A stretch of 64,000 bases of DNA from Bolinopsis microptera (Eukaryota; Ctenophora; Tentaculata; Lobata; Bolinopsidae). The notes beneath the pieces are model-generated. The model ran no database searches, had not been told where the DNA came from, and saw nothing but the letters and a program-made list of their open reading frames with translations. The position numbers were made by a program, and so were the translations under genes. The DNA is taken from positions 14,878,667-14,942,666 of the forward strand of contig NC_087074.1 of assembly GCF_026151205.1 (NCBI RefSeq). The letters are read 5' to 3'. Below, one piece after another: positions 8,923 to 53,450 of the stretch (position 1 is its first letter; each line of letters starts with the position of its first letter).

Positions 8923-11900
8923 GTAAGTTTCTCAGTTGTGTTATAATCTAAGCTATTCAATAAAATTTACTTGATATCGTGATAATCATTTTTAAGTACC
9001 TCATAACTAATTATCAGAGTTGAGACACAGTTAATAAACTGCGGAGTGACTAAAATGCTATACAGCAAAAACAGAACGCTCCAACCAAACACTCCACCTA
9101 CTGATCCTAACCACCCTAACAACTCTCTAGCTCTCTCTCTTCAACCCTCATTCCCTCACTCCTCTTGGTGCACAAAACCATTCTAACCTATGTATGTCCC
9201 CCTGACGGGTTCCACAAGCCCAACGGTACATAGTTAGACGAAAAACAGAGAAGCCTTGATTGCCAGATCAAGGACTGCATCAGTAGCAGCGAAATACGGA
9301 TATACCTTCTCCCTTACAGTCAGCGAGCTGACAACTATCTGACTGTGTCTTTTAGGCCTTGTCACACCACCTTCGCTATTGCATCCGCTCGCCCGTATTC
9401 ACTGACACATGCCACACCTGGGTTTAGTATGAAGATGTACGCATATTCACCCAAGATGCGGAGATGCCTCAGTTTAGCGAGTTGAGATACAACAGCAAAC
9501 TCACAGGAGCATGGATCAGAATCATCAGTTACCAACCTGACACCGTTTCGGGGCTTTAATCGCAATACGGTTTCCTGTCAGGCGCCCCAGCAGTCCACCC
9601 TTGAACCACCATCTGATCCGAGAGTCACTTGAGGAGACCCGTTAGAGCTCGCAATTGGCGACGAGATAACGTTTATGGTACCTCTAGATGTTATAGTGAA
9701 CTCTCAAGCTCCAACCTTCCTGAACTCCCACTCCCTCTTTCTCGATAACAAGTAGATCCATCTGGAACAGTGGGCTGCCTCTTTCCCACTGTCCCGTACC
9801 AGCTTCTTCAGCTCTCTTCCCCTAAAACCAATCCTCCTCGCAGCTCTCTCCAAACTCTGCGCAACCACTCCCCTAGCTCCAACTTCGACTGCGGCATTAT
9901 AACAGCACCAACCTTCCGCCTGAATCTCAGCCTGCAGACCGCTGTATCGGTCGAGCTTGTACTCGTGCGATTCAGCGATCCGCTCTTCAGATGGTACTGT
10001 TAGCTCCCACCAAATAACTGTCTTTGCCGACCTTGAGAATATCACAAGGTCCGGCCTCAGCCGTGTTTCCACAATCTCACTGGGAAACTTAAGCTGCCCC
10101 TCAAGGTCTGACAGCACTATCCAATCCCGATACCCACTCAGGATCCCAAAACCACGACTATCCTTCCGGTCGTCTGTACCTGCTTTTCTTTTCCCAGCAG
10201 GAACAAAATCAATGAACTGCCTTCCATCGCCGGCCTTGTTCTTATAAGTGTTCACTCGGCGATCACAATGGAAGACAACCTGTTCAGAGATCTGCTTCAG
10301 AACCTTGTCGTGCCGCCATCTATACCTTCCTTGACTAAGGGCCACCTTACACCCAGCCAAAATGTGCTGAATGGTGCCCATCCTCTCCTCACATAACTTG
10401 CACTTCCCATCCTCATCTTCACTCCACTTGGAAACCATAGAGGGGGTTAAGAGGGTGCCGTACACAGCACTTAGCATGAACCCAATAAGTGAGTCACCAT
10501 ACTTAAAAACTAATTATCAAAAAGAGATAGAAATGTCACAGCTTAAGAATACGCCTTAATCAACCAGGTACGAATCTTTGGAAGAGCTAAAAGAAGAAAA
10601 GAAGCGAAAGAAGTTGAATTGGAACAAAATTCTGGAGCTGGAAAATAACCACAAACGAGAAGAGAAAGATAACCGGAAGCGTTTAAACCGTTACGAGGGA
10701 CGAGTCGTGAGATACGATCACGTGATTCAGCTGTTCCACCTGTATTCCTGCAAGATTCTCACAGCATCACCCAGCAACACATCTTGCACTGAGCCGAGAA
10801 ACTTTGCCTGTTATCTAGACTCGGACCCCAGTAAGCACAGCCGTTTTAAGGTCATCCCCGCAGTGGATGGCTACGATCCTGGAGACCCTGTTAATCACTC
10901 AGACTTCATCAATTTGTACAGTGACCCAGACGGGTTTGTCGGCACTAGTGTTCGAAATCTAGATCCGATCCAAACGCTTTATCCACCACTCCCAGAAGTA
11001 TTCATAGGACCTAGAGGCGGAGGTTTTTCTATCAAGCTCTACAAGGAGAAAGTTGAAGTAACAGCAGAAAATGCTTTGTCTCAAAACACAGTACTGGGAG
11101 GCGACCTGGTTCAATTTTACAACAAGAACTTGAACCTTTTCTTGGCTGCCGATGAAAACAATAATCTAATTTTGAAAAAGCCAGCCTCCGGTGAATTAAA
11201 GAACTTCAGTTCATTTGCCGATAGTTTCTGGGTGGTTAACAAAATTAAAGCTAAGTATTCCTCCCCGCTCAAGATTTGCTCAGGGTCCAGCACAGACCAG
11301 GATATCACTCTCACGAACTTTGTGACGGGAAAGAAGGCCATATTCCCTTCTGGTCATGATCAAACTTCATTGAAGTCGCTGATAAAGATCACTACTTTAG
11401 ACATTAAATCAGGGGATTGTTTAAAGATGTTTGCAGGAAAGTCCTGGTTGAGTTTCGGAGGAATTGAAAGTGACGGATTCACAAGAAAAATCATTTGCAT
11501 TGACCACAGGGACCATACAGATGTTTTTACTATCCATAAGATAGATGCTTCCACAAAGCAGCGTATGTTTAAACTTCTGGGCTTCAAACTACTTCTCACA
11601 GTCATTGAAACCAGGTGCAAAAATAACCAGCTGACAGAGGCGCATCTTGAAAACATCCTGTCAGCATTTCAAGAAATGCACACCTTTATTGAAGGACTGA
11701 AAAAGAAGACTGAAGTTTACGAGAACTGCTACGCTTTGGGCATCACAACATTGTGTTTCAACATTTGCAACATGTTGATCCCACAGATGCAGGAAGGTCA
11801 AGGATTCAAAAAGGACGTGGAGTGGATGGTGATTCTCATCAGAGACATGATGAAACACACTGGAGAACTGCTAGACAACCCTGGATTAGACCTCACCAGG

Positions 11901-14900
11901 AACCTCTTCATTGACAAGTCAGGAGTAGGACTGGAAGCTTTCCTGAATATCATCAGACATAATGTTAACCTGGTGTCCCTGATTCCCACTGATTTGGTTG
12001 AGAGTATTGTTGAGGATTACACCACCTCAGGGAAACCCATCTACCTTAAAGTGCTCAGAAAGCTCTGCAAGTGCAAGAGACAGGCAGTTACAAGCAACCA
12101 AAATGTAATCATTAAATCGCTGTTGGGCAGTAAAATTCATCAGCGATTTATCCAAATACAGCACAGCAAGGGTCAAGTAAGCGTTATGTATGGAAGTGAA
12201 TGGATTTTATTGACTGATCTTACCGAAGTGAACAACAGCCAGAACTTCAAGGATTTCCTCAGCCAACTTGATTTAATCAGAAACATGTTGTTTGGAAAGA
12301 ACTCTGTGGGAAAAGAGTTGATCGTGGGGAAGTACAACATGTTTAGTGAAGATGAGTGTGTTGATGTGATAACAAATGAGAAAATAGATGTCGAGGTAAG
12401 GGATTTTTTCTTAAAGTCGATATGTTTAAATCGAAAAACTGGAAATTATTCCATAATCTTTTTTACAATCGCCAAAAATCGTAAACACTTCACTACCAAA
12501 GTATCAGTTTTCAATATTTTATTGCGTCATTTGACTCATATCCTCTTGTATTAGTCCCTCCAAACCACATTGCTTATTTTCAGATTCGCAGTAGATACAT
12601 AAAAATCTTAGTAGCAGCCCACATCGATCACGAAATAAGGACTGCAACTTTTGAACCTAGGATGCTGTCGTACCAGCCCGTGAAGAAGTCACCAGAACAA
12701 CCTCCCCAAGCGAGGGATATCTACTCTGTTCTTGATAAGTGGCTAATCCAATACGTGGAGAACAACACCAACGTAATCACGTCGCAAGAGGTGAGAATAA
12801 ATTGTCATAACTGAAACATCTTTTACAAACGTCTCTGAAAACCAAGTGCCTGAAATTTATAAAATAAAATTGCAGTATAACACATTGAACCAAAACCTCT
12901 ACTCTTAAGCCGTTATAAGCCTAATACATTTACTAAATTAGTAACTGAGTTACTTCCTCCAGGAGAACAACCAGTTTAAGAACAGTGTGATAATGTTGGT
13001 GGAATATATGTTTAGGAAAGAAGACCTCGACATCAGCAGCAGCCACTTGGAGAGGTACTTAGAGTTGTCATGTGTTAAAGAATACATTTTAAAGTTACGT
13101 GAATATGACAAATTATATCATTGAATTAACAGTTTGCAAGAAAGAACAGGAGATTTTCATTATTCTTAATTTTTTGGTAATTATTCCAGATACATTAAAG
13201 CACTGATTAAATGGTTGGACGGAAGGTTAGATAAATATTACGAAGAAGAACATGATAATGCCAGTAAAGATGTATTCAGAAGAATTTTCAGGTAAGGACC
13301 TTACCTCATCATTTAATTATCTAATTACCTCATTATCTAACATAAAATAAGTAAAATACTGACAAATGAGTAAGATACTGACTAAACATGAACAAACATG
13401 AATCGAGCCGTAAAATAATGCCCTATGGCGGTGGTTGTGGTTATGGTAAAATCTTGGTTATTCTTACATTTAACTCACAGACACATTTCAGGTTCCGAAA
13501 TCTACCAGAAAACAGAAAATGTAATGTCATCAAACAGCGAGTACTGGAAACAATTCACCTGGCATTTTGGCACTGTCTGACACATTTCTGGGAGAGAACA
13601 ATGGCACCCCTCTACTCTGCTCTTGCAGAAACCTCCTCAGAGGGTCAGAACAAAACTTTGGACACCTGCCAGATCAAATCCAATATATCGAGTGCTGTTC
13701 AAGGCGTCCTCCCAATAATGACGCTTACTGAAGCAGTTTCTACTACTCTCAACATGAAAGCTTGTGAAAACTTGAGGGATGATTTCGAGTCCAACTCTAA
13801 AGGAATCTCTCCATCTGCCGCATCGGCGTTTATAGAGTTTCTTGAAGATCTTCTGGGTGACATTTACCTGTTCTCTGAGACACCTGACATAATGACAGTG
13901 ATATTAGACACCCTGAACTACGAGTCTGATTATCTTACTACTAGGTTCGTAAAACAAAGCTCACTACAATATAGCATATTTCTGTGGTCACCAATTCCTA
14001 TAAAATCTTATGTAATTAATCTTGTAATATTTACAATCATTAATATAATATGCCATATGGAATCCTCAATCCGAAAGTGGTTGATCTCACAATTTTACAA
14101 CATTTTGCAGAGCAACAGAGCTGATGGTCCATCTTTTTTCACCAATACATAAGCTGTTGGCAATTCTGCCTAATACGAGGATCATGATCGCAGAGGAAAC
14201 TTTCCAAACCAGAAAAGAGATCACTGAGAACTATCTCCAGATCAGGAAAATAGCCACCGATCCACTCACGTAAGTTTTGATGGCACGTTAGAATCGTAAT
14301 GACTTATCTGCTGAGCCCTGGGGAGAGGTATTTAGCTTAACAAAACTGTTTATTTCAATATTCAAATATCAAAATTGGTGTTTGGCGCACTGATAAAACA
14401 AGACTTAAATGTATGAAAGTATTTAGGACCTTTATTTAAACGAGTTATTCCGACAGGGAAAAGTTGTTAGAGAAAGTGATCTTGTCGATGAACAAGCTTA
14501 GAGAATCTTGCTTGAACGAGGACAACAGCATAAACAAGACGATGCAGAAATTTGTGTTCGATCTTGGAACGGTGAAAGAGATAATCCGGATAGTGCTAGC
14601 TAACAGAATTACCATCTCTTCCACCTATTTACCAACTGATGCCAATGATTATATGGACGAAAAATTACTTCAACTCAAGATTGAAAGCTTTCGACTTCTG
14701 AAGGTAAGGTTGTCGAAGTTTCTGAAATTGCTGATAATCTCAACCAAATTTCTTGACGGAATAACAAATACGCAGAAAATTAACCAAAGTCTCAGTCTGA
14801 TGATCTTATAACACGACGTTATAAACTACCCAAATTAAAATTCAGGTAGTCATCTCTGGTTTAGACCAAGGGCAAGAGCGGGTGATGGAATACTTCAAAG

Positions 14901-23900: not shown

Positions 23901-26900
23901 TATTGAACACCATCATTGCTGCAGAGGCACCAGGTTACTTTCAAATGCTTGTTAGGGGAAGTGAACTGTGATATCTAGCATTAAAAATTAAAACAAGGGT
24001 AACTAAAATCTACCAAATTAAATAAAATCAAGATTTAACCGGTACTTGAACGGCATAGATCATTTAGTTAACCCTTAGCTAAATGTATGGTATGATTTTA
24101 ACTGTCAAATTTTCAGCTAACGACTTCGAAAATGCCCAAGAAATAAAAGCAAACGCCTATGCACTCTTATCAACACTTGTTGAACAATCCAACATGCTCT
24201 CTGAATTCTACGACAAGGTTTGCAAGAAAACTTGAAATGTTATATGCATGCACAAATAATAACGTCTGGAAAACCCGAAAGAATTTTCTCGCTGCAGAGA
24301 ATATTGACAAACAATTATTTTATATTTTTAGGTAAGAGAGGAGCTAGACATTTACACACTCCAAAGTGAAATAAACAGCCATCTTGGATTACTGGGTACG
24401 GAGGGAGGCGAGAAGGCTCAGACAGCTGCTTTCAAGGGTTATGCCTTACTCAAGAAGATTAGTGCTTTGGAGAAGAAGGATTATGTAGGGAAGTTAGACG
24501 AGGAGATATCTCAAAAACTAAAGGTTACAAATCAACATCTAGACGAGATTTTTATTGTGAATAGCGATATCAAGCTTGCCTTAAGTAGACATAGTACGGT
24601 TAAATATGAAGTGAGCTCTTTCGATTTTTACCATCTCAAGTGGAGTATAAGAAACAACTGTTTTAAACCATGAGTGGCTTCATGATATTACAACAGGTTG
24701 GAAGCGTTGAAGTTCAATGGAAGGGACATCTGGAGAAGGTATACTATCCAATACCAAAGAGTGGCCAAGTCAGGAACAAAATACGGGAGGAACTTAAGTG
24801 GGGTATTGATAGAAAATCGAAGTTTGACAAACAACGAGATTTTCTCATCTGGAGCCAAGAGGTCAGCCTTAAATCCTATATCAGATTGATAAAGACCTGA
24901 AATTTTAATTATATGTGATTCAAATAAATTCTACGAAATTTAAAACCACCGAAAGTTAACAAATCTCTCTTTATCAGATTGTAGAAGACGTGGCTCACCA
25001 GCGTTACTTCATGTCCGTACCTTTTATCAGTTGGGTCATGGCCCATGAGATCTGGTGGGATTGGCTCGTCTTCCTCATAGCTCTTGTAGTCCAGGTATCT
25101 GGCAAGATGTGTAAATAAGATTAAACCGTGCAAGCTGCCTCAGTTCGTTTAATTATGGCGGGTTAATTTGGCGGTTTTTCGGAAAAAACCCGCCATTATT
25201 TTTACCCACCACAATATTACACGCCATGAATATGCGAATTAAGGTATATAACATTCTCTTTCAATTTAGAATAATTTAGTTACCGTATCTATGTAACATG
25301 AATATTGAATAATCCACACGAATTAACACGGAAGATTGAAGGCAATGTTTACTCAGCTGTGGCTCCTGAAAGAATGGGTGGACGTTGACTGGGTGGTTAC
25401 CCCAAACGGGATTACCCCAGACGGGGTTAGAAATGAAACTTACCTGGAGACTGTACCTCCGCATCTTGTTCAGTGTTATGATAATAAGAGAAATGGCGGA
25501 AAGGAATCCTACGTTGGGGTTTGTCCTTCGGAGGGCTTCTACTTCACGATAGTGTGTTTAGGTAAGGTGATGTTTGTGGGAGAGCTAATATAGCAGAGAT
25601 TGTTACGGAGTAAGAACAGTGTCTTATAGCCATTTTACTATCTTGAACTTTTAAATGAAATAATATAGAAGGATCCGACAGCAAATATTGGCCGAAAAAC
25701 CTAACTTCGGATTTGGATAAGAGTCGCTGTCGGACAAGACTCGCCCAATCATTTATTTCAGATTGAAAAATGTTAAATAACTAAGAAAATCAAACCTGAT
25801 CCCACCCAGGAACCGTACATTTGTTTGCCTGCATATTCCTAACCTTAAGCTACGTACTCTCCAACTACCACAGAATCTCGCTCAAGTTTAACCCAAACAA
25901 AAGGATGAATATCCAGTGGCATTCCTTCTACCACTTTTACCTACTTGCACTTCTTATCTGCAGTTGTTTAGGCATATGGTAAATATACTTTCCATTTATT
26001 GCATTTTTAATGTAACTTTCAAATTGAGAATTAATATAGTTATAACATTATTCTGTTGTTTATCTAAAGCTGAACTATTACTAATTTCAGGTCAGATGGT
26101 ATTGCGTACTGTTTCCACTTGTTCCACATTGCTACTCTGTTTGACTTACTCGGAAGGGTCATTCGTGGAGCAACCACCCATGCCGACCAGCTTTTGGTAT
26201 CTAAAATATTACTTACTTGAGTACCATAATTTACTAATTTTAATTTTACAATTTAAAAGTACACAATCAATTTCAAATTTTAAAGAAAACATATTCTAAT
26301 ACTGCGCAACGAAATGTAACTACATTCCCGCTGCACTTTCCCCAAGCACACACTGCACATGCACCACACAGCTTTCTAAAGCACTCAAGCTTCAGCGCTA
26401 AATCCTATTTCAGTTCTGCTTTCCTTTTGCGATTTTTGTCACGTATGCATATGCCGTTCTATACACGGTAACAGTGCGGGACATCTTTGATGAAGAGGAG
26501 ATGGAGTATTGCACCACCACATTCCAATGCTTGATAACAGTGCTGCACAAATCCCTCCAGCCGGCCGGGGGAGGCCACAACTATAGGTTGGTGCTGCACT
26601 GCTGATCTCCCCTTCTCTCTTCTAATCACCTTTACCCTGTATCTTTCAGGTGTGCGTTCCTTTCGCAGCCATTATTGCCTACATTTACGCCATTATATAC
26701 TTTGGTGCCTTCCGGAAAATGTTTGACAATACAAAAATGGAGTATTGCGATACACTAGGTCGTTGTCTTGTTACAGTGCTGAAGAACTCGTTGCGACCTT
26801 CGGCAGGCGGTCATAACTATAGGTACTAAACCAAGCATAGCCAAACTGCACCAAGCTATAACTAAATGTACTGTAGATCCGGGTGCTGGTTGGGAGGGGA

Positions 26901-29662
26901 AACTTGGTTACCACGGTTACCACGGTTTTGCTCTGACACGTGACAGGTATTAACCAATCAAAACACAAGATCACTGTCACGTGTCAAAACAAATATAGTT
27001 CACCTTCCCGCCAGTATTTAGATTTATACGAAGCATAGCCTAACTGTACCTAGCTATAGCTGTTGTAGTATTTCAAAGAATGATATATGTTGTTACGTAG
27101 CATTTGTGGGAAAATACGTTTTTAATGGATGCTGTTTAATGTTTAATGTTTAATGTTTATGCCATAAATTATTATTTATGGGCTTGTTATGTATGTGAAT
27201 GTTTGTTGTTATCTCGTGGGATGTAAAGCCAATGAAAGCAAATAAATTAACGTCGCTGAAATTATGATTATTATATGGATTACCATTAAATTAATTTTTG
27301 TTTAAATGTATTTTCAACAATTGAGGATAGAAGGTATCATGATATGATCTTCAACGATAGTATCTTCTAAGTTTATCATTTTAGTCACACAACAAACATT
27401 TCAGTTGGAAAGACAGGAAGACATTTGATGACCTTTGGATGCGTTTACTAATAGACGCCAGCTTTTGGATCCTATTCACTGTTATTGGTCTTAACGTGGT
27501 GACCAGTTTGATCTTGGACGGGTTTCGTCAGCTAAAGGTCTGTCAATTATTCATGTCAAAGCTAAACCGTTGCCTAATGTGTTGCAAATTTATGAGAATG
27601 AAAACTTCTTGTGCGGTGAAGAACTTGTCAGTACCGTATAAATATTAAATACCTCTCAATTTGTCCTCTGCCTAATACGTTTCCTGACATATTTACTGAA
27701 AATCCTCAAATAATTCCACGAAGGTTCTATTTATAGTGGCGGTTCTATTTATATAGTTCAGTTTGACAGAAACTAAACAGGGAACCTTTAAAAATACCAA
27801 ATGAGGGAATAAATCTGTTTATCACATACTATTTACGGGAACTAACGACACATTGTGCTCAGACAGAATTGCCTCTTTATTCTTTAAACTGAACGACTAA
27901 AATGACCAAGCACACCTTTTATCGCATTGAATCACCTCACCGACACTTCTGACATCATACTGTTCCTGCAAGGCGAAGCAGCAAAGGGTGCGGCCAGGCT
28001 ACAAGCTTATGGCAGCCTCACTCTTGAAACTATCGCCTTCAGGAAGGGAACTATCAAAAATCATACCACTATCAACAAACAATTCATGGCAGACCTCATT
28101 ATCCCACCTAGAGCAACGAGAGACCTAACAACACCAACCATGATGCTGGGACGGCACTTCACCGTCACAACAAAAAGCAGATGAGCTGGCCAAGCTTGGT
28201 ACAACCAGTGAATCCACTTTGAAGTGTCCAATTCCACAATCCTACATCAAGCGTCAAATCGACAACAAAGTCAACAGACTGAATCAGGAAACTTGGTTAA
28301 CTGACGGTCCCAGACACACCAAACTGACAATCGGCCACAAGCATGCCAAAATCATCAAAAACCTCAACACTACACTCAGCAAAAACAGACAAGATTACAG
28401 AACTGCAGTTCACCTCATCACGGGTCACTGCGGCTTAAACAAACACCTTCACACCATTTGCAAATCAAACACCAGTGCTTGTCCTATGTGCGGCGACGGA
28501 GAGGAAACTGTCTCACACTTCCTTGGACAGTGTCCAGCTATTGCCCAAATTAGAGGTCAATATTTCCAGGACTACTACCTCTCTGTCAATGACATATTCG
28601 ACAACCAACACATCACCACAATTGTCAATTTCGCAAACCGCACCAAACGCTTAATTGTGCCGGAAGAGCTGGATCAGACCGGGGTGACTTAAAGTATTAT
28701 CTCATATGCTGTCTCGTCTCGTTTTACTTTTCCAAACCCAGCTGGCATTTAAGCGTATCATTTTGACTCATATATCATCTTACACCATCCTCCACCAATC
28801 ACTCTGATTTCACCGGCAACCTTCCCCAAGGTTGCCACACCCCAGAGGTAGGCAGAGCATCTCAATGCTATCCTCTCGTGGGCTATCTTGGCCCAGCCTC
28901 TCTTAAAAAAAAATATATATATTTACTGAAAATCCTCAAATAATTCCACGAAGGTTCTATTTATAGTGGCGGTTCTATTTATATAGTTCAGTTTGACAGA
29001 AACTAAACAGGGAACCTTTAAAAATACCAAATGAGGGAATAAATCTGTTTATCACATACTATTTACGGGAACTAACGACACATTGTGCTCAGACAGAATT
29101 GCCTCTTTATTCTTTAAACTGAACGACTAAAATGACTCCAGGCTGAGCGAGAACGAGCGCTAAAAGACATGACTACCTTGTGTACAATTTGTGGCCTCTC
29201 TAAAGATTCTCTCACTACACGTGGTGTGTCCTGGTCCAATCACGTGGAGAGGGAACACAATATCTGGTCCTATGTTACCTTCTTTTACTACCTCCAAGAG
29301 CACGATGGTCGATTTTCTGCCGTGGAAAATGAGGTTTGTTTGAACTCCGAACTCTAATCTCTGAACGAGAAAGTCCATATGTTTGGACCTGATTTTCAGT
29401 TTCACTTCCAACGTACTAATTGTACTTTCAATCACGCTTGTTAAGTTGGAAGTGGAATAATAGTACTTTTCCTCCATGATGGTTTCTAGAGTTAATACAC
29501 GTCAGACATAATCATAATACCAAAAGAGAATCAAAATTAAGCTACTTTTATAACTCAACAAATATTCAGGTCCTGAAAAAGTTCCAAAAAGCGGATCCCT
29601 CTTTCTTGCCCGCAGGCCGCTGCATATCAATCGACACCAAGATCGATCTGGAAAAGAAGTGA
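8726..29662 (+). CDS. IP3-receptor family Ca2+-release channel, 36 exon positions, one with two alternative copies
   Basis: Divergent member of the IP3R/RyR family, expected as a tetramer in the ER membrane releasing Ca2+. Exons: 8726-8922, 10568-12395, 12584-12790, 12963-13054, 13190-13291, 13492-13944, 14111-14269, 14457-14703, 14846-15035, ~15138-15348, 15528-15698, 16500-16590, 16720-16848, 18609-18746, 18986-19033, 19307-19432, 19616-19837, 19946-20113, 20228-20368, 20527-20670, 20782-20847, 21585-21727, 22481-22557, 23454-23608, 23663-23933, 24117-24217, 24332-24523, 24697-24861, 24978-25094, 25357-25561, 25810-25978, 26091-26196, 26414-26586 or 26650-26822, 27405-27537, 29142-29333, 29570-29662. 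All other junctions are GT-AG and phase-consistent; only the exon 10 acceptor lacks AG. The product is about 2,473 residues against about 2,700 for usual IP3Rs. Start: first ATG after an in-frame stop at 8,702, with G at -3 and +4. IP3R rather than RyR because of overall size, the RIH-associated block (exons 24-28) and the C-terminal CTICGL...EHNIW domain. Confidence 0.93.
9106..10560 (-). mobile_element. 5'-truncated RLE-type non-LTR retrotransposon (3' end plus UTR) in channel intron 1
   Basis: Reading on the minus strand, a 257-residue C-terminal ORF (10,477-9,704) is followed by a 3' untranslated stretch running to about 9,106. The 9,106-9,570 part recurs in diverged form at 56,717-57,107, with shared blocks such as AGCAGCGAAATACGGATATA and TGACACCGTTTCGGGGCTT. 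This shows it is a dispersed element. The 5' end is lost at about 10,480-10,560, and outer limits are approximate. It sits antisense in the intron between channel exons 1 and 2. Confidence 0.75.
9704..10477 (-). CDS. C-terminal zinc knuckle and restriction-like endonuclease of an RLE retrotransposon (partial)
   Basis: 257 open codons, uninterrupted to the stop. Residues about 25-45 hold a CKLC...H...C zinc knuckle; then come RPDLVIFS and WWELTVPSEE, the PD...E-T core of a PD-(D/E)xK-type endonuclease, then VEVGARGVVAQS and a basic C-terminus ending in CSRW. This order is known from R2/NeSL-like non-LTR elements, where the C-terminal nuclease nicks the target. The reverse transcriptase upstream is missing, so this is a dead fragment despite its clean frame. 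The first Met is internal to the original polyprotein. Clade within the RLE group is uncertain. Confidence 0.75.
   Translation of the reverse strand: MLSAVYGTLLTPSMVSKWSEDEDGKCKLCEERMGTIQHILAGCKVALSQGRYRWRHDKVLKQISEQVVFHCDRRVNTYKNKAGDGRQFIDFVPAGKRKAGTDDRKDSRGFGILSGYRDWIVLSDLEGQLKFPSEIVETRLRPDLVIFSRSAKTVIWWELTVPSEERIAESHEYKLDRYSGLQAEIQAEGWCCYNAAVEVGARGVVAQSLERAARRIGFRGRELKKLVRDSGKEAAHCSRWIYLLSRKREWEFRKVGA
10568..12395 (+). CDS. Channel exon 2: suppressor end, MIR repeats and start of first RIH region
   Basis: A single 1,828-nt exon, unusually long for this gene, where most exons are 50-300 nt. It begins with a Lys/Glu-rich helix, then RYDHVIQLFHLYSCKIL, matching the MIR-type strand after the suppressor in IP3Rs. 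GGDLVQFYNKNLNLFLAADE and SFWVVNKI are further MIR/trefoil signatures. From about residue 500 the RIH-type helical region begins (YLKVLRKLCKCKRQAVTSNQ). The loop that carries Arg-Thr-Thr-Gly-Arg in vertebrate IP3Rs reads KKPASGE here, so the beta-domain ligand contacts look lost. Confidence 0.9.
12584..16848 (+). CDS. Channel exons 3-13: N-terminal RIH / armadillo-like solenoid
   Basis: Eleven exons of mainly helical sequence. Exon 3 (IRSRYIKILVAAHIDHEIRT) aligns with the IP3R stretch that reads ...LMLHMHVDRDP. Exon 6 (13,492-13,944, 151 residues) includes a Cys/Ser-rich linker. All junctions join in phase except the exon 9 to exon 10 step: exon 9 ends at 15,035 in phase 1, while the exon 10 frame has an in-frame stop at 15,131 and no AG between that stop and the coding stretch, so its start (15,138 by phase) is inferred. 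Exon 12 (16,500) and exon 13 (16,720) end this block before a 1.76-kb intron that holds a MITE. Confidence 0.8.
17063..17124. repeat. 31-bp tandem duplication in channel intron 13
   Basis: Two copies of a 31-bp unit starting AATCAACATTTACATGATG, differing at two positions. Confidence 0.9.
17741..18032. mobile_element. TA-flanked MITE, 292 bp, in channel intron 13
   Basis: The left end reads CCTTATCGGTCATAATTATC and the right end, reversed, CCTTATCGGACATAATTGTC; the inverted repeat runs about 28 bp. Both ends abut TA, as expected for a Tc1/mariner-type TA duplication. There is no ORF. Its terminal sequence is related to that of the MITE at 40,113-40,691 (shared CCTTA...GACAT..TT...CGGAC). Confidence 0.8.
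18529..18585. repeat. 18-bp tandem repeat just upstream of channel exon 14
   Basis: Two full copies and a partial copy of AGCAAAAGTAGAAGATAA within 25-80 nt of the exon 14 acceptor (AG at 18,607-18,608). It makes the sequence before that acceptor unusually purine-rich. Confidence 0.8.
18609..24523 (+). CDS. Channel exons 14-27: central solenoid and RIH-associated region
   Basis: Fourteen exons, most of them phase 0 on both sides (exons 14-21), followed by mixed phases. Exon 15 is only 48 nt and exon 21 66 nt (20,782-20,847). Exons 24-27 carry the RIH-associated homology: LSIQLIGAMCEGQYTEMQ and LVSHNFLVMLIRLLHCVRSG parallel the IP3R stretch before the membrane region, as does QEIKANAYALLSTLVEQSN. 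Exon 19 is acidic (FEEAEESGK, CDDE followed by EDDFDTHE in exon 20) and may be a flexible or Ca2+-sensing loop; that role is inference. Confidence 0.85.
24697..26196 (+). CDS. Channel exons 28-32: pre-membrane segment and S1-S4
   Basis: Exon 28 contains HLEKVYYPIPKSGQVRNKI, equivalent to the RxxEQIVFPVP segment of IP3Rs. Exon 29 gives S1 (WWDWLVFLIALVVQ). Exon 30 encodes a lumenal S1-S2 loop with an NET glycosylation site and four Cys including VCPSEGF, then enters S2. Exon 31 gives S2 and S3 (HSFYHFYLLALLICSCLGIW). Exon 32 gives S4 and the S4-S5 linker (LFHIATLFDLLGRVIRGATT), close to the LFDLVYREETLLNVIKSVT of IP3Rs. The exon 32 donor is phase 0, which fits either copy of exon 33. Confidence 0.9.
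26414..26586 (+). CDS. Channel exon 33a: S5 and pore loop, GGGHNY filter version
   Basis: 173 nt, phase 0 to phase 2, acceptor TTTCAG and donor AG|GTTGGT. It encodes 57 codons plus two bases: S5 (CFPFAIFVTYAYAVLYTVTV), a turret with RDIFDEEEMEYC, the pore helix (CLITVLHKSLQ) and PAGGGHNYR. IP3Rs have CIVTVLSHGLRSGGGVGD at this place, so the alignment is unambiguous, but Val-Gly-Asp of the filter is His-Asn-Tyr. The copy is 30/58 identical to exon 33b and the same length. Confidence 0.9.
26650..26822 (+). CDS. Channel exon 33b: S5 and pore loop, AGGHNY filter version
   Basis: 173 nt, phase 0 to phase 2, acceptor TCTTTCAG and donor AG|GTACTA, separated from 33a by only 63 nt. It encodes S5 (VPFAAIIAYIYAIIYFGAF), RKMFDNTKMEYC, the pore helix (CLVTVLKNSLR) and PSAGGHNYR. 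FRKMFDNTKM is closer to the FRKFYNKSE turret of ryanodine receptors than 33a is. Splicing 33a directly to 33b creates a stop at 26,756; skipping both creates a stop at 27,426. Only one copy at a time is therefore compatible with a full protein. Confidence 0.9.
27405..27537 (+). CDS. Channel exon 34: S6 gate helix
   Basis: 133 nt, entering in phase 2 and ending in phase 0. It encodes SWKDRKTFDDLWMRL and the S6 helix (ASFWILFTVIGLNVVTSLIL) ending in DGFRQLK, which matches IP3R [23 protein letters not shown]. The N in GLNVV and the D of ILDGF, both characteristic of this helix, are conserved. The donor is AAG|GTCTGT. Confidence 0.92.
27689..27906. repeat. 218-bp target-site duplication, left copy
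   Basis: Identical by eye over 218 bp to 28,919-29,136. It immediately precedes the truncated LINE. It contains the original intron 34 sequence including the pyrimidine-rich CTTTATTCTTTAAACTG stretch before the splice acceptor. Confidence 0.9.
27907..28918 (+). mobile_element. 5'-truncated LINE insertion (RNase H / zinc-knuckle end) in channel intron 34
   Basis: About 1,012 bp between two identical 218-bp copies of host sequence, ending in an A-rich tail (TCTCTTAAAAAAAAATATAT). It contains only the 3' part of a retrotransposon: an RNase H remnant with KADELAKLG, a C-terminal zinc knuckle, and a 3' UTR. That UTR ends AGAGCATC...ATGCTATCC...CGTGGGC...CAGCCT, which recurs at 48,938-48,995. Perfect duplication identity implies a recent insertion. 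RNase H plus the CPMCGDGEETVSHFLGQCP knuckle points to the I/Jockey-type lineage. Confidence 0.85.
27927..28692 (+). pseudogene. LINE C-terminal ORF fragment with one frameshift
   Basis: The first frame (27,927-28,184) runs out just where the second frame (from about 28,170 to 28,692) reads KADELAKLGTTSESTLKCP, the end of an RNase H domain, so one indel lies near 28,170. The second part has KLTIGHKHAK, LITGHCGLNKHL and a C-x2-C-x8-H-x4-C knuckle (CPMCGDGEETVSHFLGQC), then a stop at 28,692. There is no reverse transcriptase in this copy, so it is not autonomous. Confidence 0.75.
28919..29136. repeat. 218-bp target-site duplication, right copy
   Basis: Second copy of the duplicated host sequence. 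It ends TAAAATGAC and is followed directly by TCCAG and exon 35, so this copy supplies the branch point and polypyrimidine tract now used for that acceptor. Confidence 0.9.
29142..29333 (+). CDS. Channel exon 35: C-terminal Cys2-His2 linker domain
   Basis: 64 codons, phase 0 on both sides. It starts AERERALKDMTTLCTICGL and continues through WSNHVEREHNIWSYVTFFYY. The Cys-x2-Cys, then His-x4-His, with EHNxW, is the signature of the IP3R/RyR linker domain that binds zinc and couples the gate to the cytosolic assembly. The acceptor AG lies five bases after the retained right copy of the 218-bp duplication. Confidence 0.95.
29570..29662 (+). CDS. Channel exon 36: C-terminus and stop
   Basis: 30 codons plus TGA at 29,660. 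VLKKFQKADPSFLPAGRCIS follows the linker domain where IP3Rs have a Met-x-x-Glu-Arg...Trp-Phe-Pro segment, and the protein ends DLEKK. The long C-terminal coiled-coil tail of vertebrate IP3Rs is absent; in this respect it is nearer to RyR, which also stops soon after FFPAGDC. Confidence 0.85.
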   Translation, partial: VLKKFQKADPSFLPAGRCISIDTKIDLEKK

Positions 29663-33434: not shown

Positions 33435-33899
33435 CAACTTACCAACTAGTCAAACTAATCGACCAACTTACCAACTAGTCAAACTAATCGACCAACTTAC
33501 CAACTAGTCAAACTAATCGACCAACTTACCAACTAGTCAAACTAATCGACCAACTTACCAACTAGTCAAACTAATCGACCAACTTACCAACTAGTCAAAC
33601 TAATCGACCAACTTACCAACTAGTCAAACTAATCGACCAACTTACCAACTCGTCAAACTAATCGACCAACTTACCAACTAGTCAAACTAATCGACCAACT
33701 TACCAACTAGTCAAACTAATCGACCAACTTACCAACTAGTCAAACTAATCGACCAACTTACCAACTAGTCACACTAATCGACCAACTTACCAACTAGTCA
33801 AACTAATCGACCAACTTACCAACTAGTCAAACTAATCGACCAACTTACCAACTAGTCAAACTAATCGACCAACTTACAAACTAGTCAAACTAATCGACC
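33435..33899. repeat. 29-bp minisatellite, 16 copies
   Basis: Unit begins CAACTTACCAACTAGTCAAA and ends CTAATCGAC. Sixteen head-to-tail copies are almost identical; the few variants are single substitutions (for example CTCGTC near 33,646 and TTACAAACT in the last unit). Such homogeneity points to recent expansion. Confidence 0.97.
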
Positions 33900-34227
33900 A
33901 AAATTGTGAAGATGATTAGTGTGCAAGCTAAATTAGATTTGCAATTTATAAGCTCAACCTAATTTACGAGTCACATGCTGCAGTGAAAACCTTGCCAGAC
34001 GCTGAAAGTAAAACCAACGAGAAAAAACACAAAGCTTAAGACCATGATTTGCACGTGCATGAATTAAGCGGTTTTTAAGCCGACGTTATCATGAGAAAAT
34101 TCGTGACAGAACCAATAACGATATGTATAAGAGATGGCTGCTGGGGCTATTAGTGGCATTTCCTGTAAAGTCAGCGGATAATTAATAGCTTAATTAATAG
34201 CTTAAAGTTAATAGCCTGCACAAAATT

Positions 34228-40971: not shown

Positions 40972-41332
40972 ACATTACGAGGCCGGGTGGTGAAGTGGTA
41001 ACATTACGAGGCCGGGTGGTGAAGTGGTAACATTACGAGGCCGGGTGGTGAAGTGGTAACATTACGAGGCCGGGTGGTGAAGTGGTAACATTACGAGGCC
41101 GGGTGGTGAAGTGGTAACATTACGAGGCCGGGTGGTGAAGTGGTAACATTACGAGGCCGGGTGGTGAAGTGGTAACATTACGAGGCCGGGTGGTGAAGTG
41201 GTAACATTACGAGGCCGGGTGGTGAAGTGGTAACATTACGAGACCGGGTGGTGAAGTGGTAACATTACGAGGCCGGGTGGTGAAGTGGTAACATTACGAG
41301 GCCGGGTGGTGAAGTGGTAACATTACGAGGCC
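40972..41332. repeat. 29-bp minisatellite with tRNA-like unit, about 12.4 copies
   Basis: Unit contains GGCCGGGTGGTGAAGTGGTA followed by ACATTACGA. Copies are identical except one A for G near 41,240. GGTGGTGAAGTGGTA resembles the acceptor/D-arm half of a tRNA, including a box A-like TGGTGAAGTGG. No box B or cloverleaf is present in the unit, so it is not a tRNA gene. Confidence 0.95.
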
Positions 41333-42398: not shown

Positions 42399-43450
42399 GG
42401 TCAGTGTAACTGTAAGATTGGTCCGTGTAAGATTTTTCAATGTAAGATTTTTCAGTGTAAGATTAGTCCGTGTAAGATTAGTTAGTGTAAGATTGGTCAG
42501 TGTAAGATTGGTCAGTGTAAGATTGGTCAGTGTAAGATTGGTATGTGTAAGATTGGTCAGTGTAAGATTAGTCAGTGTATGATTGGTCAGTGTAAGATTG
42601 GTACGTGTAAGATTAGTCAGTGTAAGATTGGTCAGTGTAAGATTGGTCAGTGTATGATTGGTCAGTGTAAGATTGGTCAGTGTAAGATTGGTCAGTGTAA
42701 GATTGGTACGTGTATGATTGGCCAGTGTAAGATTGGTATGTGTAAGATTGGTACGTGTATGATTGGTCAGTGCAAGATTGGTCAGTGTAAGATTAGTCAG
42801 TGTATGATTGGTCAGTGTAGGATTGGTACGTGTAAGATTAGTCAGTGTATGATTGGTCAGTGTAAGATTGGTATGTGTAAGATTAGTCAGTGTAAGATTG
42901 GTCAGTGTAAGATTAGTCAGTGTATGATTGGTCGGTGTAAGATTGGTCAGTGTAAGATTGGTACGTGTATGATTGGTCAGTGTAAGATTGGTATGTGTAA
43001 GATTGGTACGTGTATGATTGGTCAGTGCAAGATTGGTCAGTGTAAGATTAGTCAGTGTATGATTGGTCAGTGTAGGATTGGTACGTGTAAGATTAGTCAG
43101 TGTATGATTGGTCAGTGTAAGATTGGTATGTGTAAGATTAGTCAGTGTATGATTGGTCGGTGTAAGATTGGTAAGTGTAAGATTGGTCAGTGTAAGATTT
43201 TTCAATGTAAGATTGGTCAGTGTAAAATTGATCAGTGTAAGATTGGTCAGTGTAAAATTGATCAGTGTAAGATTGGTCAGTGTAAAATTGATCAGCGTAA
43301 GATTAGTCAGTGTAAGATTGGTCAGTGTAAGAATGGTCAGTGTAAGATTGGTCAGTGTAAGATTGGTCAGTGTAAGATTGGTCAGTGTAAGATTAGTCAG
43401 TGTAAGATTGGTCAGTGTAAGATTGGTATGTGTAAGATTAGTCAGTGTAA
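42399..43450. repeat. 15-bp satellite array, first block (about 70 units)
   Basis: Consensus unit GATTGGTCAGTGTAA with variants such as GTACGTG, GTATGTG, AGTCAG, TTTTCAATG and AAAATTGATCAG. Variants are arranged in higher-order patterns: 42,540-42,890 is partly repeated at 42,960-43,160. Since 15 is a multiple of 3 and the unit lacks stops in several frames, long meaningless frames appear on both strands (Cys-Lys-Ile-Gly-Gln on plus, Leu-Thr-Leu-Thr-Asn on minus). Confidence 0.97.
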
Positions 43451-43534
43451 TATTGATTTAATATTGGTTTAATATTGGTTTAATATTGGTTTAATATTGG
43501 TTTAATATTGGTTTAATATTGGTTTAATATTGGT
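43451..43534. repeat. 11-bp repeat TTTAATATTGG, about 7 copies, at the array junction
   Basis: Separates the first and second satellite blocks. ATTGG is shared with the 15-bp unit, so it probably arose by slippage from it. Confidence 0.95.
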
Positions 43535-44317
43535 CAGTGTAACTGTAAGATTGGTCCGTGTAAGATTTTTCAATGTAAGATTAGTCAGTGTAAGATTAGT
43601 CCGTGTAAGATTAGTTAGTGTAAGATTGGTCAGTGTAAGATTGGTCAGTGTATGATTGGTCAGTGTAAGATTGGTCAGTGTAAGATTAGTCAGGGTAAGA
43701 TTGGTCAGTGTAAGATTGGTCAGTGTATGATTGGTCAGTGTAAGATTGGTCAGTGTAAGATTGGTATGTGTAAGATTGGTACGTGTATGATTGGTCAGTG
43801 TAAGATTGGTCAGTGTAAGATTAGTCAGTGTATGATTGGTCAGTGTAAGATTGGTACGTGTAAGATTAGTCAGTGTATGATTGGTCAGTGTAAGATTGGT
43901 ATGTGTAAGATTAGTCAGTGTAAGATTAGTCAGTGTATGATTGGTCAGTGTAAGATTGGTACGTGTAAGATTGGTATGTGTAAGATTGGTACGTGTATGA
44001 TTGGTCAGTGTAAGATTGGTCAGTGTAAGATTAGTCAGTGTATGATTGGTCAGTGTAAGATTGGTACGTGTAAGATTAGTCAGTGTATGATTGGTCAGTG
44101 TAAGATTGGTATGTGTAAGATTAGTCAGTGTAAGATTAGTCAGTGTATGATTGGTCAGTGTAAGATTGGTACGTGTAAGATTGGTACGTGTAAGATTAGT
44201 CAGTGTATGATTAGTCAGTGTAAGATTAGTCAGTGTATGATTGGTCAGTGTAAGATTGGTACGTGTAAGATTGGTACGTGTAAGATTAGTCAGTGTATGA
44301 TTGGTCAGTGTAAGATT
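43535..44317. repeat. 15-bp satellite array, second block, left of the LINE
   Basis: Begins with the same irregular leader as the first block (CAGTGTAACTGTAAGATT, then TTTTTCAATG), which shows that the whole first block was duplicated. About 52 units, with an emerging 120-bp (8-unit) higher-order repeat. Confidence 0.95.
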
Positions 44318-47300
44318 CAGGATGGTCGCACAGGAGTGATGCCCGTGCCTACGCTGGGGGAGACATGTGACACCTATGGTCCCTTAAAAGATCGTCGCCT
44401 GTACTCTCAATCTACCTCAACTACAGTGAATTTACTCGTCATTGCTATGATGTCTATGCTAAGTATCGCTAGTTGGAACGTTCATGGGTTAACAAAGGAC
44501 CTTAAAAAGGAGCAGCTTGTTATAGACGCTAAAAGGTATGGTTTTGATTTCGTGGCTCTCCAGGAGACTAAATGCCAGGACTATGCTGAAATTGACTTAA
44601 TGAACTACAGTCTTATTTTATTTGAACAGTTACCTCATGGTTTTTATCATCACGGTTTGGGGTTTCTAATCAGCCCTCAGCTCAGAAAATCAGTTGTCGA
44701 TTGGAGACGTGTCAGTAACAGAGTTGCTTTCATCAACTTCAGACTTAACTCAAAAAACGGTACATTGACTTATTTTAGACTCATTAACGCGTATGGACCC
44801 ACCATGAAAAATGTAGAGGATGCTGATTGTACAGGTGATTCCAACATCATTCTAGAGGAGTTTTACGCTGATCTGAATTCTGCACTTGACAATATTCCTG
44901 CTCATTACGATGTGTTTATAGCCGGGGATTTTAATTCTCGTCTGGGTCGTAAATCAGATGGTGACATCCTTTCTGGTTTATCACGCAATATGGGTATGTA
45001 TGGAGTCGGTCAACGTAACAGCAATGGCCAACGTTTGCTTGATTTTATGATTGAGAAGGATTTTTATGCCTGTAACACAAGCTTCAAACATTCAGCTCGT
45101 CACATTACATCATGGCACGGTACTACTACAGCCCGAGGTGACCCTGACAAGACCGTGAAATACTACAAGCAGATTGACTACATCCTTTGTAAATCTAGCT
45201 ACAAAGTGAATATCACGGACGCTCGTTCATACGGAGGAGCCCTACTCAAATCAGATCACAAGCCTGTAGTCGCTCGCATCACACTCCACCAGAAGTACCT
45301 TGTCCATAAGAAGCACAAGACGTCCAGAAAGCTTGACCTCAAGAGACTACAAGATCATGGAGTTAAGAAGAAGATGCTGAGTACGTTTGAGAAGAAAGTA
45401 AGAATGAGACCCAAGACAGGCAACCCCAACGATGACCTCAACAACCTGATAACAGATGCCTATAACACTGCTGACGAGGTGCTAGGAACTATACCTCCAA
45501 AAAAGCACAAATCCTTCAGTACTGATCCTGAGATCGCTGAACTGTCACTTGAACGCAAGCAGCTGATGATTGCAAATATGCAGAACAAATTCCCGACCAA
45601 CAGGAAGCATGTCAAGACCAACATCAACCAGCTAAGACGTAAAATCACAAAGAGACTCAGAGATATCAACAACCGCAGTGCTGACACACTCGTCGAAGAG
45701 ATAAACAAGACAGACGACGCCCGGAGATACTTTGGAGCCTCTAAGATACTCGCCAAAGGATATGTTAGACCAGCTCTAACCGTCCACAACTCTGCTGGGA
45801 ATATCGCAGGTACTAATGAGGAGAAAGCGAGGATTATTAAGGAGTACTTTGAAGCTGAGTTCAACGACGCTGATGAGCCCACCCTTCCTGCCTTCCTTGA
45901 CCCCCCATCTAGCCTTAACAGTCCCATCACCGTTGCAGAGATAGAGAGAGCCATCAGTAAACTCAAGTCTGGTAAAGCAGTGGGTATTGATAAAGTTCCT
46001 GGCGAGGTCATGAAAGCCCTGAACAACCCCCTCCTTCATGAAGAGCTAGCTAAAGTGTTCAACGAGTCTTTCGAGAAAAACATTCACATTGAAGCAATAG
46101 GAGCAGGCATCCTCACACCACTGGCTAAGCCTGGTAAAACTCGTGGCCCAGTTAAGTCGATACGACCATTGACCCTGCTGAATGTTTCTAGAAAGATCCT
46201 GTCACTGATAGTGCTAAACAGAATAGAGAGAGCTGTGGACAACTTCACCGGACCGTTCCAAGCTGCCTACAAAGCTGGCAGGAGCTGTGCCGACCTAGTT
46301 TGGGCACAGAGCATGCTCATATCTGTAGTAATGAAGAAGGAGTTTGAATGGAACAAAGTGAGTATCGACATGTCAGCTGCTTTCAATACCATCCGCAGAG
46401 GTACAACAATCAGACTACTAGAAGCTGCAGGATGCTCCAGAGACGACCTGAGGCTTGTACAATACCTCATGGCTAACACCACTCTAGTAGTCAGAGTGTG
46501 TTCTACTGACTCAGAGATGTTCTCTTTCAACATAGGAGCCTCCCAAGGAGACAGCACAGCTGGTAAATTGTTTACCCTCAATCTAGCTGGAGCTGTAGTG
46601 CACATAAGAGCAGTCCTCCCCTCAAGACCCAACCCTCCGATAGCCGATAACCACATGCCTCTTGAGTCCGGCTATTCAGACGATGTAGAGGAGATTGGTG
46701 AAGATATGGAGGAGTTACAGGTTATCTTTCAGATCTCCAAGAATATTCTCAGTGAATGGAGTCTCTTTGTCAATGACACAAAGACAAAGTTTACCAGAGT
46801 GTATTTGGAAGAAGTTGGTGCCTGTGACGAGTGGGGTAATGAACTAAGAGGAAATGAGGAGTGGAGAAACGAGACGCTTCTTGGTACTAAGCTTGGATCA
46901 GAGCAGGATGTTACTAATAGAATAAATAAAGCTAACTCTGCCTTCTGGTCATTTGACAAGCTGTGGTGCCAGGGATCAGAGAGGAGTCAGATAACTGAGA
47001 AGAGAAAGATCAAACTCTACGACTCACTAGTAGTATCAGTGCTCCTGTACAACTGCTGCTGCTGGGCCGTACCTCAGCATGTTCTAGAGTCTGTAGATGT
47101 TGTTCAGAGGAAGCACCTCAAGCGCATCCTACATATCTATTGGCCTAGCTCAATATCTAACAAGGCCCTCTACGCTCGTACCCAGACCAGGCCCCTTTCC
47201 GAGAGTGGAAAAGGCACGGTGGACAATGCTAGGTCATGTTCTACGCAGTGACAACGACACGCCTGCCTACCAGTCTCTGTTATTTGCTACACTAGGATGT

Positions 47301-47560
47301 CAAACACTAAAGGGACGAGTGGGTAGACACAGGACTAATTTGTATGATATTATTGTAAAAAAGGACCTATTTAAGAGACAAATTTATTTGAAAAATGAAG
47401 ATGATTTTACCAACTTAGTGAACTTGGCAAGAGATAGAGTAGGATGGAGGAGTTTATTTACTTTGAGACATATTGAACGAATGAGTCTTCGTAAGCGTAA
47501 ATAGGCCAGCACTTTGCTGAGCCTCTTTAGGTGCTCTTTTGTTTATAGATGTTATTATAT
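44318..47560 (+). mobile_element. Near-full-length APE-type LINE inserted in the satellite (RTE-like)
   Basis: About 3.24 kb with satellite on both sides. The flanks ATGATTGGTCAGTGTAAGAT (before 44,318 and from about 47,561) could be a target duplication but are also part of the array, so this cannot be decided. The element encodes an endonuclease, a reverse transcriptase and a short C-terminal region, no RNase H, and ends in an AT-rich GTTTATAGATGTTATTATAT tail without a long poly-A. Short RNase H-less organisation and the WTMLGHVLR C-terminal motif suggest the RTE lineage. Confidence 0.88.
44447..47504 (+). CDS. LINE polyprotein: apurinic endonuclease and reverse transcriptase, one frameshift near the C-terminus
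   Basis: From Met at 44,447 the frame is open to 47,251. Endonuclease motifs: SWNVHGL, ALQETK, AGDFNSRLG, QIDYIL, SDHKPVV. Reverse transcriptase motifs: GKAVGIDKVPGEVM, RPLTLLNVSRKIL, QAAYKAGRSCADLVW, VSIDMSAAFNTI with the first catalytic Asp, GASQGDSTAGKLF, and GYSDDVEE, where the usual Y/FADD is YSDD. At about 47,200 the frame shifts: the natural continuation VEKARWTMLGHVLRSDN runs in the next frame to a stop at 47,504, consistent with one missing base. Upstream, the frame is open without a stop back through the satellite to 43,652. The element is therefore nearly, but not completely, intact. Confidence 0.88.
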
Positions 47561-48327
47561 ATGATTGGTCAGTGTAAGATTGGTACGTGTAAGATTAGTC
47601 AGTGTATGATTGGTCAGTGTAAGATTGGTATGTGTAAGATTAGTCAGTGTAAGATTAGTCAGTGTATGATTGGTCAGTGTAAGATTGGTACGTGTAAGAT
47701 TGGTACGTGTAAGATTAGTCAGTGTATGATTGGTCAGTGTAAGATTGGTATGTGTAAGATTAGTCAGTGTAAGATTAGTCAGTGTATGATTGGTCAGTGT
47801 AAGATTGGTACGTGTAAGATTGGTACGTGTAAGATTAGTCAGTGTATGATTGGTCAGTGTAAGATTGGTATGTGTAAGATTAGTCAGTGTAAGATTAGTC
47901 AGTGTATGATTGGTCAGTGTAAGATTGGTACGTGTAAGATTGATCAGTGTAAGATTAGTCAGTGTAAGATTGGTCAGTGTAAGATTGGTACGTGTATGAT
48001 TGGTCAGTGTAAGATTTTTCAATGTAAGATTGGTCAGTGTAAAATTGATCAGTGTAAGATTGGTCAGTGTAAAATTGATCAGTGTAAGATTAGTCAGTGT
48101 AAGATTGGTCAGTGTAAGAATGGTCAGTGTAAGATTGGTCAGTGTAAGATTGGTCAGTGTAAGATTGGTATGTGTAAGATTAGTCAGTGTAATATTGGTC
48201 AGTGTAAGATTAGTCAGTGTATGATTGGTCAGTGTAAGATTGGTACGTGTAAGATTGGTCAGTGTAAGATTGGTGTGTGTAAGATTAGTCAGTGTAAGAT
48301 TGGTATGTGTAAGATTGGTATGTGTTA
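47561..48327. repeat. 15-bp satellite array, right of the LINE
   Basis: About 51 units. The first 380 bp is a clean 120-bp higher-order repeat (8 units, ending GTACGTG, GTACGTG, AGTCAG, GGTCAG, GTATGTG, AGTCAG, AGTCAG, GGTCAG). 48,001-48,185 repeats the end of the first block (43,185-43,440), including the TTTTTCAATG and AAAATTGATCAG units. Confidence 0.95.
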
Positions 48328-52903: not shown

Positions 52904-53450
52904 AGTCCAGGTGCACCTGGCTGGTTGTGCACTTCTGACTTTAGTCCAGGTGCACCTGGCTGGTTGTGCATTTCTGGCTTTAGTCCAGGTGCACCTGGCT
53001 GGTTTTGCACTTCTGGTTTTAGTCCAGGTGCACCTGCTGGTTGTGCACTTCTGACTTTAGTCCAGGTGCACCTGGCTGGTTGTGAATTTCTGGCTTTTAT
53101 AGTCCAGGTGCACCTGCTGGTTGTGCATATCTGGCTTTTATAGTCAAGGTGCACCTGGCTGGTTTTGCACTTCTGGCTTTAGTCCAGGTGCACCTGGCTG
53201 GTTGTGCATTTCTGGCTTTTATAGTCCAGGTGCACCTGCTGGTTGTGCATTTCTGGCTTTTATAGTCAAGGTGCACCTGGCTGGTTTTGCACTTCTGGCT
53301 TTAGTCCAGGTGCACCTGGCTGGTTTGTGCATTTCTGGCTTTTATAGTCAAGGTGCACCTGGCTGGTTTTGCACTTCTGGCTTTAGTCCAGGTGCACCTG
53401 GCTGGTTGTGCATTTCTGGCTTTAGTCCAATAGTCCAGGCACACTTGGTG
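52904..53450. repeat. 39-42 bp minisatellite with palindromic double E-box, 13 copies
   Basis: Each unit contains TCCAGGTGCACCTGG (or a CAAGGTGCACC / one-triplet-shorter variant) followed by CTGGTTGTGCATTTCTGG. CCAGGTGCACCTGG is a 14-bp palindrome holding CAGGTG and CACCTG. Length variants differ mostly by 3 bp, so frames stay open on both strands; the minus strand reads Gly-Ala-Pro-Gly-Leu-Lys repeats. The last unit is degenerate. Confidence 0.95.

Follow-up and report, generated by a model that had tools for sequence, protein, structure and literature searches.

Tandem pore exons, probably mutually exclusive, in a divergent IP3R/RyR-superfamily gene of the ctenophore Bolinopsis microptera

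To our knowledge, the pore properties of IP3R and RyR channels are generally taken as fixed by the gene, with diversity arising from the regulatory regions. Alternative pore exons have been described in other channels. NALCN has tandem alternative pore exons 15a/15b in domain II and 31a/31b in domain III, and according to the accessible part of that report, a difference in selectivity could not be demonstrated by recording (PMC3557258). In the invertebrate Cav3 (T-type) channels, the alternative exons 12a and 12b begin at S5, cover the turret and reach the first pore helix, and the available text describes the products as sodium-selective versus more calcium-selective channels (PMC4436565). 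Within the superfamily itself, the insect RyR exons a and b are mutually exclusive and are used in a stage-dependent manner; as given in the text available to us, they are located in the second SPRY domain (residues 1136–1168), far from the pore (PMC3342285). A survey of 26 insect species, as far as its accessible text goes, neither mapped nor dismissed mutually exclusive exons in IP3Rs (PMC6026295). An earlier note on the present DNA knew of no IP3R or RyR with alternative pore exons, and we likewise found no such report among titles and abstract openings; this search covered few subscription journals and is provisional. No dedicated study of IP3R or RyR in ctenophores or Mnemiopsis was found in the literature searched, which was of limited coverage.

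Here we describe two adjoining pore exons, A and B, in a stretch of 64,000 nucleotides from B. microptera (the window; C3:14878667–14942666; GC content 38.3%). Our best explanation, to which we assign a probability of about 0.77 from the sequence, is that exon duplication in a divergent, ctenophore-type gene of the IP3R/RyR superfamily gave rise to A and B as a tandem, mutually exclusive pair.

The host gene and its relatives

The exon borders of the whole gene were predicted from the sequence and not derived from RNA. The features of the gene outside the exon pair are as follows.

8726–29335, plus strand: extent of the coding sequence modelled for the divergent IP3R/RyR-superfamily gene, starting with the ATG at 8726 (splice-aware model, pore completed by hand)
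10568–12395, plus strand: large N-terminal exon of 1828 nt, containing most of the Ins145_P3_rec match and the RIH match
25810–25978, plus strand: exon whose hydrophobic segments precede S4 when aligned to IP3R1; the paralogue has a counterpart
26091–26196, plus strand: exon of S4 and the S4–S5 region, by alignment to IP3R1; it ends in phase 0 and is the shared 5' partner of A and B
27405–27537, plus strand: S6 exon, the shared 3' partner of A and B, whose first base completes a split serine codon
29142–29335, plus strand: C-terminal zinc-finger-like exon (CTICGL ... H ... EHNIWSY), which aligns to the stretch after S6 in IP3R1

The model comprises 2255 codons and is stop-free in isoform A and in isoform B. 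It ends with the zinc-finger-like exon at 29335; the true 3' end, or last coding exon, of the gene was not found. The Pfam profiles Ins145_P3_rec (PF08709, 44.8 bits, cut-off 23), RIH (PF01365, 31.4 bits, cut-off 22.3) and RIH_assoc (PF08454, 34.2 bits, cut-off 28.5) all matched above their cut-offs. Ion_trans reached 23 bits, just below its cut-off of 25, and the MIR domain gave no Pfam match at E <= 0.1; the gene is highly divergent. In a comparison with the PDB, the C-terminal half matched IP3R1 (E = 6.6e-23) and RyR (from 1.9e-21), and the best stretches covered the pore region, S6 and the zinc finger. These matches reveal the C-terminal pore followed by a zinc-finger-like domain that is expected of the superfamily. 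The N-terminal part gave a weak match to ITPR2 (E from 2.4e-6). By the Pfam and PDB matches, the gene is a divergent member of the IP3R/RyR superfamily. It is not a typical IP3 receptor, as its filter and its N-terminal motifs show.

The filter motif of IP3R and RyR is GGGxGD, as stated in the accessible text of PMC3342285. In this gene, the expected GGG[IV]GD filter with its acidic residue is replaced by xGGHNY, which reads GGGHNY in A, AGGHNY in B and NGGHNY in a paralogue, R2. No paper on IP3R and the filter motif was found in the literature searched, again of limited coverage. Three basic-residue motifs, RSTGR, KLVREQDIL and NNNRKLLEKH, are taken here to be IP3-coordinating. In a distant alignment with the canonical IP3R of this genome, the first corresponds to KPASG, the second falls mostly in a gap, and the third corresponds to RHNVNLVSL. 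By such distant alignment the motifs are conserved neither in the window gene (10568–12395) nor in R2, which suggests another ligand, or none, for both. The earlier note had called the channel IP3-receptor-like. The Pfam and PDB matches support this name for the architecture, to which it should be limited, since neither the filter acid nor the IP3-coordinating motifs are conserved.

A genome search with the protein of exon B and the S6 exon returned eight places at E <= 1. Three are A, B and S6 of the window gene, four belong to two related loci elsewhere on this chromosome, and the last is a weak stray. R2 is located at C3:6.16–6.20 Mb, on the chromosome of the window gene. Its pore exon is single, has 173 nt and the same phases as A and B (VIIPFAV...NGGHNY, net charge +1), and is closer to B (33/57 identical residues) than to A (24/57). 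The S4 exon of the window gene shares 22 of 33 aligned residues with R2, which also repeats the phases of the pore exon and the start of the S6 exon. No second pore exon was found in the introns on either side of the R2 pore exon, where the best match between the S4 and S6 exons had E = 1.6. Weak matches of exon A in R2 (E from 0.003, among the matches listed) were rejected; they fall in a simple tandem repeat with stops, about 5 kb before the pore exon.

The same chromosome carries R1 (C3:5.21–5.24 Mb; 5.211–5.242), about 0.95 Mb from R2 and 89–96% identical to it over the longer aligned stretches of the initially compared regions, among the matches listed. R1 looks like a broken copy of R2 because the donor after its pore exon is changed and its S6 exon is interrupted.

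The canonical IP3R is located at C5:6.127–6.238 Mb on the minus strand in a gene of about 110 kb. It has the filter GGGIGDV and the IP3-coordinating motifs, and one pore place was found by the search made. We used an ab initio model of this region, which includes exons from simple repeats and from a nested gene, for the N-terminal motifs, the pore and the intron lengths. The apparent nested gene, at C5:6.171–6.180 Mb in an intron of the canonical IP3R, has repeated cysteine-rich receptor-like stretches in this model. A genome-wide search with the Ins145_P3_rec profile gave three places at E <= 0.1, one in the window gene and two at the canonical IP3R; the profile missed R2 and is thus unfit for counting the family. 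The Ion_trans profile gave 150 scored places among 256 candidates and was uninformative here, and the protein searches served instead. The viral contigs gave 18 pattern matches and no relatives of the gene.

Further observations concern other sequences. For an iGluR frame, mammalian kainate receptors rank first over the full length. Its ligand-binding stretch of 138 residues matched four PDB sequences at E <= 1e-15, three of the receptor ML032222a and the fourth 4zdm, which we take to be from Mnemiopsis and Pleurobrachia, respectively. The best match of the ML032222a stretch in the genome is 77% identical. The intron just before the zinc-finger-like exon (27689–29136) holds a 1012-base insert with a LINE-like fragment, which has a weak zf-RVT match below the cut-off. 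The insert is flanked by a perfect 218-bp direct repeat (27689–27906 and 28919–29136) that resembles a target-site duplication of unusual length. In the region 42411–48319, arrays of a 15-bp tandem repeat (42411–44317 and 47563–48319) flank a frame with an endonuclease domain, which looks like a non-LTR retrotransposon; a single open frame of 1210 codons covers part of the first array and the element. Further long tandem arrays, at 33435–33901, 40972–41332 and 52902–53429, are built of 29-bp units (98–99% matches) and a 39-bp unit (88% matches).

The exon pair and its reading frames

The exon pair lies between the S4 and S6 exons.

26414–26586, plus strand: pore exon A, 173 nt, phase 0 to 2, encoding S5, the turret VRDIFDEEEMEYC and the filter GGGHNY; net charge −4
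26587–26649, plus strand: gap between A and B, 63 nt, GT...AG, polypyrimidine-rich, with a branch-point-like CTAAT motif whose A is at +39 from the donor
26650–26822, plus strand: pore exon B, 173 nt, phase 0 to 2, encoding S5, the turret FRKMFDNTKMEYC and the filter AGGHNY; net charge +3

Direct reading thus confirmed two adjoining exons of equal length and phase, 63 nt apart, at the positions that the earlier note had reported. Both are bordered by AG/GT: tttcag before TTCTGC and gttggt after CTATAG in A, and tttcag before GTGTGC and gtacta after CTATAG in B. The two exons are identical at 101 of 173 nucleotides (58%) and at 29 of 57 full codons at the residue level, or 30/58 when the serine completed by the next exon is counted, the figure given previously. 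Differences at codon positions 1, 2 and 3 number 24, 11 and 37. In tblastn searches of the window, A found B with E = 3e-12 and B found A with 5e-19; therefore, the likeness is not due to chance.

Both exons keep an MEYC motif and end in GGHNY plus two bases; the serine codon split in this way is completed by a T, the first base of the S6 exon (27405). What differs between the exons is the S5 helix, the turret (VRDIFDEEEMEYC in A, FRKMFDNTKMEYC in B), the residue at the start of the filter (glycine in A, alanine in B) and the net charge of the segment (−4 in A, +3 in B), and the difference in turret and first filter residue noted before is accordingly upheld. GGHNY is common to A, B and R2; it therefore marks the branch and is not what the exon pair varies.

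The frame stays open when the S4 exon is joined through A to the S6 exon, and likewise through B. When A and B are joined together, the first stop is a TAG at 26756; when both are skipped, it is a TGA at 27426. Translation of the joined frames reproduced both stops and, with them, the earlier argument that a message can use one exon only. Tandem homologous exons of equal length and phase, whose joint inclusion and joint omission both break the frame, are what is expected of mutually exclusive exons. The pair was seen in one genome, in which the paralogue R2 has a single exon. A search of the gene region with the 31 modelled exons at E <= 0.05 revealed no second case of duplication; the two additional weak matches, with E = 0.007 and 0.035, link unrelated exons.

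The same premature stops would also be produced if one copy were mainly a regulatory (poison) exon, so that double inclusion or skipping led to a frameshift, nonsense-mediated decay and less channel. However, a pore-segment sequence is not required of a poison exon, and both copies keep one; we regard this explanation as improbable. An error in the gene model or the assembly, with the copies belonging to different transcripts, to a collapsed haplotype or to a misassembly, is less probable still. The exon borders are predicted and the model does not reach the far 3' end of the gene, which leaves some room for such an error. However, a nucleotide identity of 58% is too low for alleles, the flanking exons join in frame without stops, and the phases of the pore exon and the start of the S6 exon are repeated in R2. 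The tandem pore exons are real as read from the sequence, and they are probably mutually exclusive and probably both used. The pair is supported in the sequence by its identical phase, its frame exclusivity, the single like exon in R2 and the coding constraint on the path between A and B.

Coding constraint on exon A

A pairwise codon model gave omega = 0.07 for the path from A to B and rejected omega = 1 (2dlnL 26.9). When the paralogue exon was included in an unanchored three-branch codon model, omega(A) = 1 was not rejected (2dlnL 2.4); this fit was incompletely converged, as the restricted model outscored the free one. A pairwise fit of A with R2 reached a boundary and was set aside. Synonymous sites are saturated, which leaves time poorly bounded. 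In anchored models, the neutral time was set by 884 codons from the other exons common with R2. The anchored joint fit with the late-duplication topology was worse by 2dlnL 18.8 when omega(A) was set to 1. The early-duplication fit with omega(A) = 1 may represent a poor optimum and was disregarded; in the remaining joint fits T reached its bound of 30. With T fixed at 0.75, 1, 1.5, 2 and 3, the anchored 2dlnL was 0.6, 0.2, 4.8, 8.9 and 13.6, respectively, so that a neutral A is not rejected at the two lowest values, and at T = 4, 6, 10 and 20 it was 15.8, 17.4, 18.1 and 18.6. For the other exons, the likelihood is 54 units higher at T = 20 than at T = 2; therefore, the high range of T (4–20) is the one that matters. 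When omega(A) was left free, it was about equal to that of the R2 pore exon, and the fits placed the exon duplication at about the time of the gene duplication or close to it; in this topology it can be no older.

At sites where B and R2 have the same base, A deviates in 11/36, 5/41 and 17/26 cases for codon positions 1, 2 and 3. This count is supportive only, because agreement by chance at the saturated third positions makes the last figure too high. Neutral decay was also simulated from B in 4000 runs of 100 substitutions each, which brought the nucleotide identity close to the observed level; the only changes modelled were substitutions, and all of them were put on A. The frame stayed open in 11% of the runs, and at least 29 identical residues were kept in 0.1%.

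These results bear on whether A is a decaying duplicate, that is, a relic that happens to stay open while B alone is used. A is the faster-changing copy, with 11 unique residues against 2 in B (relative-rate statistic 6.2) and 33 unique nucleotides against 19 (3.8). Its acceptor is weaker than that of B (−0.3 versus 3.9), the unanchored model is compatible with a neutral A, and R2 manages without a second copy. However, a neutral A is rejected by the joint and fixed-T anchored models in the preferred range of T, and A retains both splice sites, its frame, its length, and the MEYC and GGHNY motifs. Simulated neutral decay seldom kept as many identical residues. The anchored models argue for coding constraint on exon A, even though the unanchored model does not reject neutrality, and this constraint argues against a dead duplicate. 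We consider decay of A unlikely, if slightly less so than a poison exon, and prefer the explanation that both exons are used in a mutually exclusive manner.

Splicing and comparison with known systems

The earlier note had proposed that the 63-nt gap itself could prevent A from being joined to B. The gap is shorter than all 26 other modelled introns of the gene (86–1760 nt), in a model that permitted introns down to 42 nt; steric exclusion is therefore plausible. For OGDH exons, the accessible text of PMC7969005 gives mapped branch points that lie 25–41 nt from the donor and thereby enforce exclusivity, the proposed threshold being about 50 nt; the predicted branch point at +39 in the gap also falls below this value. 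Thus, the short gap and the position of the predicted branch point favour the proposal, and two candidate 65-nt introns count against it. These come from ab initio models of the canonical IP3R region, one of them in the nested gene. In the model of the canonical IP3R, 5 of 60 introns are shorter than 100 nt (30, 41, 41, 65 and 65), and four of these were inspected. The two 65-nt introns may be real, which would weaken the distance argument.

By a generic matrix, the acceptor and donor of A score −0.3 and 0.7, and those of B score 3.9 and −0.7. Each copy thus has a weak splice site, which counts against the use of both, although all these values lie within the range seen for the gene's 27 donors and 26 acceptors. 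The shared S6 acceptor scores −2.8, below the range of the acceptors. RNA pairing between introns and exons gave no convincing signal in six comparisons. The best one, between the gap and the downstream intron, was equalled by 8 of 200 shuffles, and a docking/selector pairing was dropped on this ground. The Bolinopsis annotation drew on RNA-seq and Iso-Seq, according to the available text (PMC10232365).

In the preferred explanation, an exon duplication would have given rise to tandem A and B, both of which would be used in splicing, and each mature mRNA would take one of them. The channel would then combine an unchanged large cytoplasmic body and S6 with either of two modules, each made up of S5, turret, pore helix and filter. 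Exclusivity would be enforced by the short 63-nt gap, the branch point lying too near the donor of A, and the loss of frame upon double or zero inclusion would serve as a backup layer. The choice of exon may alter conduction, for example through an acidic turret (A) versus a basic one (B) and a GGG versus an AGG filter.

More broadly, the window gene and R2 may represent a ctenophore class derived from IP3R/RyR, without IP3 sensing and with an acid-free xGGHNY filter, one member of which splices the whole module from S5 to the filter in an acidic or a basic form; we hold this tentatively, at slightly less than even odds. If true, this would be the first switchable pore among intracellular release channels, and possibly the permeant ion would be changed, beyond calcium flux alone. 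A spliced pore module in this superfamily would provide a natural swap experiment on the turret and filter within one channel body. It would also show that tandem-exon pore switching, known in four-domain plasma-membrane channels, arose in a relative of the release channels as well. Ctenophores are placed as sister to other animals in the accessible text of PMC10232365; therefore, the gene bears on the early diversification of calcium-release channels.

The canonical IP3R of the same genome belongs to the same superfamily and has the same order of S5, pore, S6 and zinc finger, whereas the window gene is without its GGGIGDV filter and IP3-coordinating motifs. IP3R and RyR are tetramers. By analogy, all four pores would change in a homotetramer, with one pore per subunit, whereas NALCN is a four-domain plasma-membrane channel in which one of four filters changes. 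The exons of the window gene also span S5, unlike those of NALCN. The Cav3 exons end before the filter and differ in length, whereas A and B include the filter and are of equal length. The likeness to OGDH exons 4a/4b lies in a short intervening intron that enforces exclusivity (PMC7969005, in its accessible part); OGDH is a vertebrate enzyme with mapped branch points, whereas the branch point in the window gene is predicted. Pore-exon switching itself is already known, and as far as our searches show, tandem pore exons are new for the IP3R/RyR superfamily.
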